Assembly (NCBI GenBank): GCA_022821985.1
Contig: JAJECP010000036.1
Coordinates: 1 to 64,000 of the forward strand
Direction: 5' to 3'
DNA: 64,000 nucleotides
DNA from: Acidimicrobiia bacterium
GTDB lineage: Bacteria > Actinomycetota > Acidimicrobiia > Acidimicrobiales > Poriferisodalaceae
Shown: positions 51,979 to 57,677 of the stretch, in pieces
Layout: every line of letters begins with the position of its first letter
Numbering within the stretch: position 1 is the stretch's first letter
Translations under genes and position numbers: made by a program
Notes under the pieces: model-generated
What the model saw: the letters and a program-made list of their open reading frames with translations, nothing else
Databases searched by the model: none
What the model was told of the DNA's origin: nothing

Positions 51979-54834
51979 GTGGCGATGACCGAGGAGCAGC
52001 GGGTGCGGGGCCACGGCCCCGGGCACCGGTCTGCCGGCGCGCCTCTGCGTCTGCAGCGGCATTTCACCGCTGATGGCGCCCATCCCTATGACACGGTGCG
52101 GTGGGAGCGCTTCGATGCCTCCATCACGAACGCGGTCGACGGATCGGTTGCGTTCTCGCAGCCCGACGTTGAGTTCCCCGCCGATTGGAGTCCCACGGCG
52201 GTCAACATCGTTGCCCAGAAGTACTTCCGCGGCACCATCGGCACGCCGGAGCGGGAGCAGTCGCTGCGCCAAGTCATCGACCGCGTTGCGGGCACCGTCA
52301 CCCAGTGGGCGGCCAGCGACGGCTATTTCGCATCTCCGGACGAGGCGGCGACATTCGAGGCAGAGCTGGCGTGGCTGCTGGTTCACCAGCGGGTGGCGTT
52401 CAACAGCCCGGTCTGGTTCAACATCGGCGTGAAGGGTGTGCCCCAGCAGGCGTCGGCCTGCTTCATCCTTGCTGTCGACGACGAGATGGAATCGATCCTG
52501 GACTGGTACGTCACCGAGGGCCGGATCTTCAAGGGCGGCTCGGGCGCCGGGGTAAACCTGTCGGCGCTGCGGGCATCGTGCGAGCCGCTGTCGGGCGGCG
52601 GCACGGCGAGCGGTCCGGTCAGCTTCATGCGCGGCGCCGATGCGTCGGCGGGCACGATCCGCAGCGGCGGCAAGACCCGGCGCGCCGCCAAGATGGTCCT
52701 GCTCGACGCCGATCATCCCGATGTCGAGGCCTTCGTGTGGTGCAAGGCACGCGAGGAGCGCAAGGCACGCGCCTTGGACGCCGCCGGATTCGACATGGAT
52801 GTCGACGGCGCCGACTCGTTCTCGGTGCAGTACCAGAATGCGAACAACTCGGTCCGGCTGTCCGACGAGTTCATGGAGGCGGTCGCGGCCGACGGCACTT
52901 GGGAGCTGCGGGCGCGCACCACGGGCGAGATCACCGCCGTCATGCGTGCGCGGGATCTCCTCGGCCAGATTGCCCAAGCGGCCTGGGAATGCGCCGACCC
53001 TGGCGTTCAGTTCTCCACCACGATCAACAGCTGGCACACGGCGCCCGCCCACGGCCCGATCAGCGCCAGCAACCCATGCAGCGAGTATGTCCACCTCGAC
53101 AACTCGGCCTGCAACCTGGCGAGCGTCAACCTGTTGCCCTTCTTTGGGGATCACGCCGCCGGCCGCGATTTCGATATCGAGGGCTTCCGCCAGGCGGTGC
53201 GCATCACGTTCATTGCCCAGGACGTGCTGGTGAGCCACGCCGACTACCCGACGGAGCTGATCGGCGAGACTTCCCGGCGCTTCCGCCAGCTCGGGCTGGG
53301 CTTCACGAATCTGGGTGCGCTGCTGATGGCAGCGGGCGTTCCCTACGACTCTCCGCAGGCGAGGGCGCTAGCGGCATCGCTCACGGCGCTCATGTGCGGG
53401 GAGGCATACGCCACCTCAGCCGACTTGGCCGAGCGGCTCGGAGCCTTCGACGGCTTCGACGCGAATGCCGATGCGATGTGCGGCGTTCTGGGCCGGCATC
53501 GCGACTCGCTGGACAGCATCGAGGTGCGCGCCGAGCCGGCGGACACCGGCGCAGGCATGGCGGCGCTGACCGAGGATCTGCGTGCCGCCGCGCGTGCTCG
53601 CTGGAACCATGCCATCGCGGGCGGCGAGTCTCATGGCGTTCGCAATTCCCAGGCCACCGTGATCGCGCCCACCGGAACGATCTCGTTCATGATGGACTGC
53701 GACACCACCGGGATCGAACCCGATCTGGGCTTGGTGAAGCACAAGAAGCTGGTGGGCGGCGGCGATCTGCGCATTGTGAACTCGACAGTGCCCGTCGCGC
53801 TGAACAGGCTCGGCTACTCGCTCTCAGACATCGCTGACATTGAGGCGCACATCCTCGCTACGGGCCACATCGCCGGCGCGCCGCACTTGGCGGACGCTCA
53901 CCGGGCGGTGTTCGCCTGCTCGATCGGCGCCGATGCCATCTCGCCGCAGGGCCACGTTGCGATGATGGCGGCCTGCCAGCCCTTCGTCTCGGGTGCGATC
54001 TCCAAGACCGTCAACCTGCCCGAGTCGGCATCCGCCGGCGACATCGAGGACCTCATCGTCGAATCGTGGCGGCTTGGGCTCAAGGCGGTGGCGATCTACC
54101 GCGACAACTGCAAGGTGAGCCAGCCCCTGTCGGTCGGGCCGGCGACCTCCGCTGGCACACCGGCTCTCGGCACACCGGCCATGGGTGCATCGGCCCAGGG
54201 GGCCGCAGCATCCGCTGCCGCCGCGTTGGGGGGAGCGGTGGTGCCGCCGCGCAACCGGCTGCCACGCAGCCGCCGGTCGCGCACGTTCTCCTTCCGGGTC
54301 ACCGACTGCCACGGCTACATGACCGTCGGCGAGTACGACGACGGCCGGCCCGGGGAGATCTTCCTCACCGTGGCGAAGCAGGGCTCCACGCTGGCCGGGA
54401 TCATGGATGCATTCGCCATCTCGGTCAGCCACGGCTTGCAGTACGGGGTGCCGCTGCGTTCCTACGTGGACGCCTTCACCAACATGCGGTTCGAGCCTGC
54501 GGGGCTCACCGACGACCCCGAGCTGCGCATTGCCACGAGCATCGTCGACTACATCTTCCGCCGCCTGGCGCTCGAGTACCTGTCGTTGGAAGAGCGCACC
54601 GAGTTGGGAGTGCTCAGCGTCGACGAGCGCACTGATCCGCCGCTGCCGGGGCTCGAGAGCGCAACGGTCGAGACCGCGATCGGCGCCGAGCCGGCACCAG
54701 ACCCGCCGTCGCACCGCTCTGAGACCCGCGGATATGCCGATGCACCGCTGTGCATGACCTGCGGCGACCGGATGGTGCGCGCCGGCTCATGCTTCGCCTG
54801 CCGCTCCTGCGGCGCAACCAGCGGCTGCGGCTGA
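51979..54834 (+). CDS. nrdJ: Adenosylcobalamin-dependent class II ribonucleotide reductase
   Basis: The 951-residue protein has FNSPVWFNIGVKG, QASACFILAVDDEM, FKGGSGAGVNLSALR and NPCSEYVHLDNSACNLASVN as in NrdJ. A zinc-type tail CMTCGDRMVRAGSCFACRSC ends it. It reduces ribonucleotides using B12 and needs no oxygen. GTG 51979 has GGAGGT 9 bases before it. Residues about 715-755 form a Gly/Ala/Pro linker (GTPALGTPAMGASAQG) of repeat-like sequence, a variable spot in the family. No other reductase is seen here. Confidence 0.96.
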   Translation: MAMTEEQRVRGHGPGHRSAGAPLRLQRHFTADGAHPYDTVRWERFDASITNAVDGSVAFSQPDVEFPADWSPTAVNIVAQKYFRGTIGTPEREQSLRQVIDRVAGTVTQWAASDGYFASPDEAATFEAELAWLLVHQRVAFNSPVWFNIGVKGVPQQASACFILAVDDEMESILDWYVTEGRIFKGGSGAGVNLSALRASCEPLSGGGTASGPVSFMRGADASAGTIRSGGKTRRAAKMVLLDADHPDVEAFVWCKAREERKARALDAAGFDMDVDGADSFSVQYQNANNSVRLSDEFMEAVAADGTWELRARTTGEITAVMRARDLLGQIAQAAWECADPGVQFSTTINSWHTAPAHGPISASNPCSEYVHLDNSACNLASVNLLPFFGDHAAGRDFDIEGFRQAVRITFIAQDVLVSHADYPTELIGETSRRFRQLGLGFTNLGALLMAAGVPYDSPQARALAASLTALMCGEAYATSADLAERLGAFDGFDANADAMCGVLGRHRDSLDSIEVRAEPADTGAGMAALTEDLRAAARARWNHAIAGGESHGVRNSQATVIAPTGTISFMMDCDTTGIEPDLGLVKHKKLVGGGDLRIVNSTVPVALNRLGYSLSDIADIEAHILATGHIAGAPHLADAHRAVFACSIGADAISPQGHVAMMAACQPFVSGAISKTVNLPESASAGDIEDLIVESWRLGLKAVAIYRDNCKVSQPLSVGPATSAGTPALGTPAMGASAQGAAASAAAALGGAVVPPRNRLPRSRRSRTFSFRVTDCHGYMTVGEYDDGRPGEIFLTVAKQGSTLAGIMDAFAISVSHGLQYGVPLRSYVDAFTNMRFEPAGLTDDPELRIATSIVDYIFRRLALEYLSLEERTELGVLSVDERTDPPLPGLESATVETAIGAEPAPDPPSHRSETRGYADAPLCMTCGDRMVRAGSCFACRSCGATSGCG

Positions 54835-54857: not shown

Positions 54858-57269
54858 TCAGGCGCCTCGCTCGAGCGGGCAGCACCCCGGAGCGCAGCTG
54901 TCCGGGCGCGGTCCCAGCCGGCCGACCGCGGGCCGTTCGGCTCGCAGACCTGCCGTCTCCTCCACGAGATCCACCAGCGCCTCCACGAACAATGGATGCG
55001 TGCCGACCGACCGAGCACGCACCATGGTGATGCCAGCGCGGGCGGCTGCGGCACGCGCCTTGGTGTCGAGGTCGACAAGCACTTCCATGTGGTCGGAGAC
55101 GAAGCCGAGCGGCACGACGAGGACGGTACGGCAGCCCGCCGAGCCGAGCTGGGCGAGCCGGTCGTTGACGTCGGGTTCCAGCCACGGCACGTGCGGTGGA
55201 CCGCTGCGCGACTGGTACACCACCTCGATCTGGCCGCTCAGGCCCGCCATGCCGGCGACTGTCTCGGCGGCATCGCGGAGCTGCGCCTCGTAGTCGCACG
55301 ATGCAGCCATCCGGCTCGGCAGGCTGTGCGCGGTGAACAGGGTGTGCACATCGCTGCGCAGGCGAGCGCCGTCGAGTGCCTCTCGGATGCGCTCAGCGAG
55401 GGCGCCGGCGAATCCGGGGTGATTGCCATAGACCCGCACCCGCGACAGGCGTGGTGCTCCGGGCACCTCGCTGGCAGCTTGTGCGAGATCTTCGTGATAT
55501 TGGCGGCAGCCCGAATACGAGCTGAATGCGGAGGTCACGATCACCGCCGCGTGGCGGCGTCCTTCGCTGGCCATCTGGCCGACGGCGTCACGCAGGTACG
55601 GGTGCCAGTTGCGATTGCCCCAGTAGCACGCCAATGGCGTGCCCCGGCGAGCGAGTTCGCCCGACAGCGCCGCCAGCAAAGCGCGGTTCTGCTCGTTGAT
55701 CGGGCTCACGCCGCCATGACGCAGGTACTGCTGAGCGACCTGGGCGAGTCGCTCTGCTGGAACGTCGCGTCCCCGAGTGACGTTCCGCAAGAACGGCATC
55801 ACGTCGTCGGGACCTTCCGGCCCTCCAAACGACAGCAGCAGCACGGAGTCGATCGACTCGGGTCCGAGGGCTTCTTGGGCCGGTGCAGCCCGGAAAGACT
55901 GCACCGTGACCGGCCCGCGCTGCCCGAGCCCAGCGGCAGGCGCTGCATCGCTCAGAGGGACCGCGGCAGCGGCATCGCCCGCACGGGCCGCCGGCGCCGT
56001 CGGGAACTGTTCGCGCTGTGCCGGCGTCGTGGCGCGGGCGGCGGTCTCACCGGTGCCGACGGTGGCGAGGGGGACGACGCGGGCGCGCCCGGAAGCGACC
56101 AGCAACGGCACCGATGTGAGCGCAATGATCATCGCCGCCACGATCGTCACGCGGTAACCGGCGCCGTCAATCAGCAGCCCTGCCAACGGCGGCCCGACAA
56201 GCCCGCCGATGCCTGCAGCGGTGTACAGCGCACCCAAGACGCCGCCGAGTCCGGCGAGCCCGAAGAGTTCTGCGGCAACCGCAGGAGACAGGGCGATGAA
56301 GCCGCCGTAGCTGCAGCCCATCACCAGCGTGTAGATCACGAGCACCGTGTAGTTGTCGCCGGCAAAGAGCCAGATCAGGTAGCTCAGCCCCATGATCGTG
56401 AAGGAGAGCTGGTACAGCCGCATGAGCGGCAGCACGGTGCCGAGTGCACCGAGTGCCAGCCGCCCGAGCAGCGAGGCCAGGCCGATGATGCTGATAAGCC
56501 ACTGACCGCCTGGCTTGCCGAGGTCGTCGAGGTAGTCCTTGATGTAGATGATCGGGACGAACAGGCTGGCGCTCAGCAGCATCATCGAGAAATAGAGCAG
56601 CGTGTACCGCCGGTTGTGCATGAGCCTGCGCAGCGACGGCATCTCGCTCGGGGGCGCGACATGGGGCGGACGCCGAGCGGCGATCGCAGCCAGCATGAGC
56701 AATCCCGTCGACACGACAGCGAGCACCCGGTAGGTGTCGCGCCAGCCGTAGAGCTCGATGAGCCATTCCGCAGCCCAGGCGCCGGCGAAGTGACCCAGTC
56801 CGATCCCAGCCACGGCCACGCCCAGTGCCGCTGTGCGGTGACGTTCGAACCAGCCGCCGACCACCGAGACCATCGGGACGTATACACACGCCACGCTGAT
56901 CCCCACGCCGAGCACGTAGGTCGTCATCGCTAGCCACAGGCTCTGGGCCAGGCTGGTCGCCCAGAGGCCGACTCCGAGGGCGACGGCGCCAGCGAAGAGC
57001 ACACGTCGGGGTCCGTAGCGGTCGCCGAGGCGACCGGTGAACACACCGAGCACGAAATAGAGGAACGTCGGAATCGCGAAGAGCAGCGACGCCAAACCGG
57101 TGCCGATGCTGAACTCGTCGCGGATGGAGGCGAGCACGACCCCGAAGCTGTAGGCCACGGCGAAGACCGCGAACGTGGCGAGCGAAGCCGACAGCGCGAC
57201 GGCCCATCCGGCAGCCGAGTCCAGCTGGAGGCTGCGGGCGGTGGCGCCCTCGTCGGCGGTTGTGCTCAA
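54858..57269 (-). CDS. hemH: Fusion of an MFS transporter with a (copro)porphyrin ferrochelatase
   Basis: One uninterrupted 803-residue frame. Residues 20-405 are an MFS transporter with 12 membrane helices (FTGRLGDRYGPRRVL is the loop 2-3 motif). Residues 405-470 are an Ala/Pro-rich linker. Residues 471-803 are a complete ferrochelatase: LLLSFGGPEGPDDVMPFLRN, FTAHSLP with catalytic His648, YQSRSGPPHVPWLEPDV, and GFVSDHMEV with Glu729. Cys588 (SYSGC) and Cys792/796/797 at the end fit the [2Fe-2S] set of actinobacterial enzymes. A porphyrin or heme cargo for the MFS half is inference. An internal GTG before the ferrochelatase half could also be used. Confidence 0.9.
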   Translation of the reverse strand: MSTTADEGATARSLQLDSAAGWAVALSASLATFAVFAVAYSFGVVLASIRDEFSIGTGLASLLFAIPTFLYFVLGVFTGRLGDRYGPRRVLFAGAVALGVGLWATSLAQSLWLAMTTYVLGVGISVACVYVPMVSVVGGWFERHRTAALGVAVAGIGLGHFAGAWAAEWLIELYGWRDTYRVLAVVSTGLLMLAAIAARRPPHVAPPSEMPSLRRLMHNRRYTLLYFSMMLLSASLFVPIIYIKDYLDDLGKPGGQWLISIIGLASLLGRLALGALGTVLPLMRLYQLSFTIMGLSYLIWLFAGDNYTVLVIYTLVMGCSYGGFIALSPAVAAELFGLAGLGGVLGALYTAAGIGGLVGPPLAGLLIDGAGYRVTIVAAMIIALTSVPLLVASGRARVVPLATVGTGETAARATTPAQREQFPTAPAARAGDAAAAVPLSDAAPAAGLGQRGPVTVQSFRAAPAQEALGPESIDSVLLLSFGGPEGPDDVMPFLRNVTRGRDVPAERLAQVAQQYLRHGGVSPINEQNRALLAALSGELARRGTPLACYWGNRNWHPYLRDAVGQMASEGRRHAAVIVTSAFSSYSGCRQYHEDLAQAASEVPGAPRLSRVRVYGNHPGFAGALAERIREALDGARLRSDVHTLFTAHSLPSRMAASCDYEAQLRDAAETVAGMAGLSGQIEVVYQSRSGPPHVPWLEPDVNDRLAQLGSAGCRTVLVVPLGFVSDHMEVLVDLDTKARAAAARAGITMVRARSVGTHPLFVEALVDLVEETAGLRAERPAVGRLGPRPDSCAPGCCPLERGA

Positions 57270-57395
57270 GGTCGTTCGCCCGGTGCTGTGCAGTCAGTGC
57301 CACCGCTGTCGACTCACCAGTGGCGCGAACGGGCACATTACTGCCGTACCGTTGCACCGGGAGGAGCCGATTCTGACTCGGAGGGGACCAGCGAG

Positions 57396-57677
57396 ATGAC
57401 CGCCCAGACCCTCAGCGATGGCGTCAGCAGCATTCCAGTCGCCAGCGGCGCTGCTGCGGGCAGTCCCGACGTCATCGAGCGCCCCGACACCCGCACGACA
57501 GACGGCGATCACGACCGCTTCTCTCACTACGTCAACAAGACGGCGCTGACCCGCTCGGCCGTCAGCGGCGAAGCGGTTGTGGCGCTGTGCGGCAAGAAGT
57601 GGGTGCCGACGCGAGACGGCGAGCGCTACCCGGTGTGCCCGGCCTGCAAGGAGATCTATGCCGGACTGCGCTCGTGA
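57396..57677 (+). CDS. DUF3039 family protein
   Basis: The 93-residue protein ends HYVNKTALTRSAVSGEAVVALCGKKW, then RYPVCPACKEIYAGLR, the DUF3039 pattern with a CxxC likely to bind zinc with the earlier Cys. The family is restricted to actinobacteria and has no known job. GGAGGGG lies before ATG 57396. The first 40 residues are low complexity. It is divergent from the transporter-ferrochelatase gene. Confidence 0.85.
   Translation: MTAQTLSDGVSSIPVASGAAAGSPDVIERPDTRTTDGDHDRFSHYVNKTALTRSAVSGEAVVALCGKKWVPTRDGERYPVCPACKEIYAGLRS

Follow-up and report, generated by a model that had tools for sequence, protein, structure and literature searches.

An SLC16-type transporter and a ferrochelatase share one reading frame in the examined genomes of a genus of uncultured Acidimicrobiia

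Results

Organization of the fused gene

The window, a stretch of 64,000 nucleotides, belongs to a draft genome of 3.3 Mb (G000), assembled in 41 contigs and 90% complete. A gene of its minus strand, running from a TTG start at the 57269 end to a TGA stop at the 54858 end, encodes both an MFS transporter domain and a ferrochelatase domain, each scoring far above its Pfam cut-off in a single protein (Table 1). This bears out the original prediction of one 803-residue frame holding a transporter, an Ala/Pro linker and a ferrochelatase, and the same frame was found in 12 gene copies; the strand had been left unspecified in that prediction. A frame of 645 aa on the plus strand opposite the fusion (54996-56933) looks like the shadow frame that a GC-rich coding strand can produce.

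Table 1. Features of the fused gene and of its neighbours in the window (residue numbers refer to the fused protein)
Feature	Position	Strand	Basis
Fused MFS-ferrochelatase gene, 803 aa	54858..57269	minus	Open reading frame and Pfam; kept in 11/11 genus genomes
MFS transporter domain, residues about 20-398, 12 helices, SLC16/monocarboxylate-transporter-like	56076..57212	minus	Pfam MFS_1; nearest solved structures SfMCT and MCT8; SfMCT residue matches
Ala/Pro-rich linker, residues 399-472, predicted disordered	55854..56075	minus	Comparison across copies; pLDDT
Ferrochelatase domain, residues 473-803, probably coproporphyrin ferrochelatase CpfC	54861..55853	minus	Pfam Ferrochelatase and TIGR00109; closest solved entries are ferrochelatases
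Catalytic His648	55326..55328	minus	133/133 aligned ferrochelatases
Catalytic Glu729	55083..55085	minus	133/133 aligned ferrochelatases
C-terminal Cys792-x3-Cys796-Cys797, putative [2Fe-2S] ligands with Cys588	54879..54896	minus	Alignment; comparison with PMC8529089
GTG (Val456), candidate internal start for a separate ferrochelatase	55902..55904	minus	GTG in 11/12 copies
B12-dependent ribonucleotide reductase (NrdJ), synteny marker downstream of the fusion	51979..54834	plus	Profile search, gene-order comparison
DUF3039 gene, divergent, synteny marker upstream of the fusion	57288..57677	plus	Pfam, gene-order comparison

The fused frame is conserved in the genus

In order to determine whether the fusion is real, we compared it across the genus of uncultured Acidimicrobiia to which the window belongs. 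The fused frame is present in all 11 genomes examined. The linker preceding a conserved (P)VTV motif measures 22-81 residues, with 11 different lengths in the 12 copies. Linker length, whose conservation the original prediction had named as a check, thus varies freely, while the reading frame is kept in every copy. Indeed, the 587 linker codons contain no in-frame stop, against 15 stops in the two other frames together and an expectation from shuffling of 6.9 per frame. The genus genomes whose provenance is visible are metagenome assemblies, a source in which two genes might be joined by a sequencing or assembly artefact; however, eleven genomes with linkers of many lengths, every one in frame, rule out an assembly indel as the source of the fusion and make an artefact of any kind exceedingly improbable. 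The original prediction had also considered that close relatives might have two genes, joined here by an indel. The fusion is instead found in all members of the genus, and the separate genes of sister genera have opposite-strand genes between them rather than a linker indel.

Both domains are under purifying selection. Pairwise dN/dS, leaving out one very close pair, is about 0.08-0.14 in the MFS half and 0.14-0.18 in the ferrochelatase half; these low values show that both halves are maintained. The linker is looser (0.17 to 1.3). Two side observations were made on individual genomes. Besides its first copy, the genome G005 carries another fused gene (G005:C67:61014-62663), truncated at a contig edge and 71% identical to the window protein; it is either a duplicate or a stray contig of another species. 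In another genome (G008) the two halves are discordant: its MFS half is 92% identical to that of G003 and its ferrochelatase half 82%, while relative to G000, G010, G009 and G007 the ferrochelatase half is 90-92% identical and the MFS half 71-72%. Such discordance suggests recombination within the fused gene.

The fusion probably arose by loss of intervening genes

In five sister genera (g2, g4, g5, g6 and g7), orthologues of the MFS and ferrochelatase halves occupy this place as separate genes. Their order is grx, DUF3039, MFS, cupin, a small gene, HemH, thymidine kinase and NrdJ, with MFS and HemH pointing one way and all the others the opposite way; the cupin gene is absent from g5, and in one genome (G022) thymidine kinase and NrdJ fall beyond the stretch examined. 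In G018 and G012, which represent outgroup genera of the family, the small gene, HemH, thymidine kinase and NrdJ follow one another in the same orientations, with no MFS gene there. At this place the window genus retains only DUF3039, the fused gene and NrdJ, again with the fused gene opposite in direction to the other two. In the MFS tree, the 12 fused copies form a clade that is sister to the 16 unfused MFS neighbours of HemH from sister genera (support 90/95). The small gene beside HemH in sister and outgroup genera encodes 104-139 aa on the opposite strand (for instance L128:4509-4823 and L119:4257-4676); it has no Pfam match and was found in none of the 11 genomes of the window genus.

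Because sister genera hold the separate orthologues in place and outgroups have no MFS gene there, the fusion appears to have arisen once, by gene loss. An MFS gene would first have come near HemH in an ancestor, and loss of the oppositely oriented intervening genes would then have joined the two frames, once, in the ancestor of the genus. With opposite-strand genes between them, MFS and HemH were not an operon beforehand, and the common argument from a fusion to a shared pathway is weakened accordingly. The comparison with sister genera thus provides a clear example of fusion by loss of the genes between two separate transcription units, and a warning that not every fusion reflects a functional link.

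A class-wide search returned other Acidimicrobiia ferrochelatases in open frames of 650-1444 aa. No MFS match was found in any of 13 such long-frame loci, and in the seven that were read out the extension is an arginine/proline-rich, out-of-frame reading of the upstream sequence, apparently hemE. For these loci we therefore rejected independent fusions elsewhere in the class, as the long frames seem to run out of frame through the gene before the ferrochelatase. In the window fusion, by contrast, a homologous MFS domain precedes the enzyme in the same frame. A second ferrochelatase type of other Acidimicrobiia (L146-L158), which is 30-37% identical and has no cysteine tail, often lies in such long frames and could be misread as a fusion.

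The ferrochelatase half

The enzyme half matches Pfam Ferrochelatase (PF00762) over residues 475-772 (4.9e-82; 275.9 bits for a cut-off of 27). It scores above the HemH cut-off of TIGR00109 (144.1 against 124.6) and falls just short of that of the narrower equivalog NF000689 (401.9 against 408). Its structure is predicted with confidence, most ten-residue blocks having a pLDDT above 85, and the predicted fold matches CpfC of Listeria and B. subtilis with a TM-score of up to 0.89 by target length. The catalytic His and Glu and the four cysteines of the original prediction are all present. Whereas the two catalytic residues are invariant among the aligned ferrochelatases, the cysteines are widely but not universally conserved: Cys588 is found in 120, Cys792 in 119, Cys796 in 108 and Cys797 in 118 of the 133 sequences, the main exceptions being the tail-less second type of the class. 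The published motif of [2Fe-2S] ferrochelatases is a C-terminal CX(1,11)CX(1,11)C plus a fourth cysteine (PMC8529089). The C-x3-CC tail does not match this strict spacing, but conservation of the four cysteines across the clade makes a [2Fe-2S] cluster on Cys588, Cys792, Cys796 and Cys797 plausible.

No second ferrochelatase was detected in the 90%-complete window genome, where the fused copy is the only one found. Matches to HemQ, of the coproheme decarboxylase family, and to a CgoX/HemY-type oxidase occur in all 11 genus genomes, the latter above its curated cut-off in 10. On contig C41 of the window genome, hemE and the CgoX/HemY-type oxidase gene lie side by side. HemQ is a separate gene, also on contig C41, and the fused protein has no Chlor_dismutase domain in Pfam searches. 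The presence of HemQ, CgoX and HemE makes a coproporphyrin-dependent pathway most likely, and the enzyme half is thus most likely a CpfC, its specificity for coproporphyrin being predicted from these pathway genes. HemB (ALAD) was found in the ten other genus genomes and not in G000, probably because that assembly is 90% complete and the gene falls in a gap.

The transporter half

The fused protein matches Pfam MFS_1 at 1.1e-39. In a model of the full-length protein, this half has about 12 helices at low confidence (pLDDT about 35-75, shallow alignment), too weak a basis for placing the two domains relative to each other. The nearest solved structures are SfMCT, an L-lactate transporter, and human MCT8, and we used the former for a residue comparison. 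In the alignment, Y130, R270, Y321 and D368 correspond to SfMCT Y119, R280, Y331 and D378, whose roles have been described and include a carboxylate-binding Tyr/Arg/Tyr set (PMC6573034). These four, which include the TM8 arginine (R270) of SLC16-type carriers, are shared by all 12 fused copies, all 16 unfused neighbours and four orthologues that are more distant. At the SfMCT positions N276, H250, L145 and F335 the residue differs, and fused and unfused proteins have the same replacement except for Tyr/Phe variation at H250; N276 becomes Ser, H250 Tyr or Phe, and F335 Ile. SfMCT D257, which is needed there for activity (PMC6573034), is kept in 9 of the 12 fused copies and in none of the 16 unfused neighbours. 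Conservation of the carboxylate-site residues in fused and unfused proteins alike makes a carboxylate substrate likely and indicates that the site was little altered by the fusion.

We thus consider that the MFS half most likely carries a carboxylate, probably a small one, although the absence of D257 from three fused copies and from the unfused neighbours counts against this reading. The MFS half does not belong to the L-lactate transporter equivalog NF049980, its score of 138.1 lying far below the threshold of 320 bits. MCT8 carries large ligands. Given its place among the closest structures, a bulky substrate is compatible with the pocket residues.

No conserved heme neighbourhood of the MFS was found. 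In an outgroup genome (G018), the unfused orthologue overlaps a gene for an HMGL-like lyase and follows one of the carboxymuconolactone decarboxylase family, neither of them a heme gene. When 83 ferrochelatase loci were searched together with their flanks, only the five from the window genus had an MFS relative nearby. Searches of Pfam and NCBIfam profiles gave no match of the MFS half to an iron-chelate or porphyrin family, nor to any family named for PefA, PefB or HatT.

One protein or a separate ferrochelatase

The frame is continuous, but its enzyme half could be released, either by an internal start at a GTG (Val454/Val456) or by cleavage of the linker, so that the fusion would be nominal. 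The codon of Val456 is GTG in 11 of the 12 copies, and in the twelfth a GTG stands at Val454. Indels are absent between this codon and the enzyme, in contrast to the freely varying stretch of linker that precedes it. The linker is predicted to be disordered, with a pLDDT of about 30 for most of residues 393-468. Other features speak against release: the open frame and linker indels in multiples of three imply that the linker is translated; no Shine-Dalgarno-like sequence stands out before the GTG; 6 of 28 all-Val columns are equally uniform in GTG; and Val456 with the tail that follows it also fits a simple domain boundary. We regard a nominal fusion, including the exclusive use of an internal start that the original prediction had considered, as possible but rather unlikely, though a separate enzyme could also be made in addition to the fused one, given the near-constant in-frame GTG by the start of the ferrochelatase.

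Discussion

Probable tethering without obligatory coupling

The product is most likely one membrane protein made of a 12-helix SLC16-type carrier, a flexible Ala/Pro tether in the cytoplasm and a C-terminal ferrochelatase. As the termini of MFS proteins are cytoplasmic (PMC6573034), the ferrochelatase would be suspended by its disordered tether on the cytoplasmic side of the membrane. The carrier would most likely still move a small carboxylate, and the sole detected ferrochelatase would work as usual, held at the inner membrane face and feeding HemQ. The explanation as a whole, in which gene loss produced a fusion once and a ferrochelatase was by chance joined to a small-carboxylate carrier that holds it at the membrane, seems to us slightly on the probable side.

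The original prediction had proposed that the fusion could couple transport of a porphyrin, heme or iron chelate with metal insertion. The MFS half would then export coproporphyrin, coproheme or heme, or import porphyrin or an iron chelate, with direct handover between carrier and ferrochelatase at the membrane, as proposed for the LplT-Aas pair. There are precedents: MFS carriers such as PefAB and HatT have been linked to heme or porphyrin efflux (PMC12670364), and the transporter LplT forms a complex with Aas, to which it is fused in some bacteria (PMC11416262). Retention of the carboxylate-binding residues would suit coproporphyrin, which has four carboxylates. Both halves are constrained in a fusion that is fixed in the genus, and genus-wide retention of a transporter-enzyme fusion can by itself point to a functional link. 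However, the proposal is unsupported by our comparisons. The closest relatives of the MFS half are monocarboxylate transporters, and the substrate-site residues hardly differ between fused proteins and unfused orthologues. Before the fusion the two genes belonged to different transcription units, divided by genes on the other strand; the proximity of an MFS relative to a ferrochelatase is restricted to the window genus among the loci searched, and no porphyrin or iron-chelate family claims the carrier. Porphyrin auxotrophy as a reason for import is also unsupported: the genus has HemE, CgoX and HemQ, with HemB in 10 of 11 genomes, so there is no visible need for imported porphyrin. By analogy with the systems above, coupling in this general sense is conceivable but unlikely, and a dedicated transport-metallation machine, in which the MFS half would move (copro)porphyrin, coproheme or an iron chelate and pass it directly to or from the ferrochelatase, is more unlikely still. 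Tethering, probably without obligatory coupling, is the best-supported view.

Comparison with known systems

No description of an MFS-ferrochelatase fusion was found in the openly accessible literature that was searched, in line with the original prediction, which was not aware of one. If one protein is made, an entire genus has the iron-insertion step of heme synthesis tied to a carrier, and this offers a natural test of whether supply of porphyrin or iron at the membrane matters for ferrochelatase.

A survey of 482 ferrochelatases found lengths of 270 to 683 aa, with the ferrochelatase-ChdC fusion of Cutibacterium acnes at the upper end (PMC8529089). As here, this HemH-ChdC protein joins a coproporphyrin-pathway ferrochelatase of an actinobacterium to a second protein (PMC8529089). 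The partner in the 683-aa protein is the next enzyme of the pathway, whereas the 803-aa protein described here has, at its N-terminus, a 12-helix transporter that is not known to be linked to the pathway. Another addition to ferrochelatases, the CAB domain, spans the membrane. Cyanobacterial and plant ferrochelatases carry it as an extra domain (PMC8529089), but it is a short chlorophyll-binding-type segment at the C-terminus, while the transporter described here is at the other end of the enzyme. The LplT-Aas pair likewise combines a transporter with a cytoplasmic enzyme; many bacteria have the two genes side by side, and others apparently have a single open reading frame for both (PMC11416262). 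Coupling is documented for LplT-Aas; in contrast, the two halves studied here were separate transcription units before fusion and have no known common substrate. For the carrier itself, the closest solved bacterial relative is the SLC16 homologue SfMCT, the L-lactate transporter of Syntrophobacter fumaroxidans. Set beside these systems, the fused protein joins familiar domains in an order for which no description was found, and its origin is clear.
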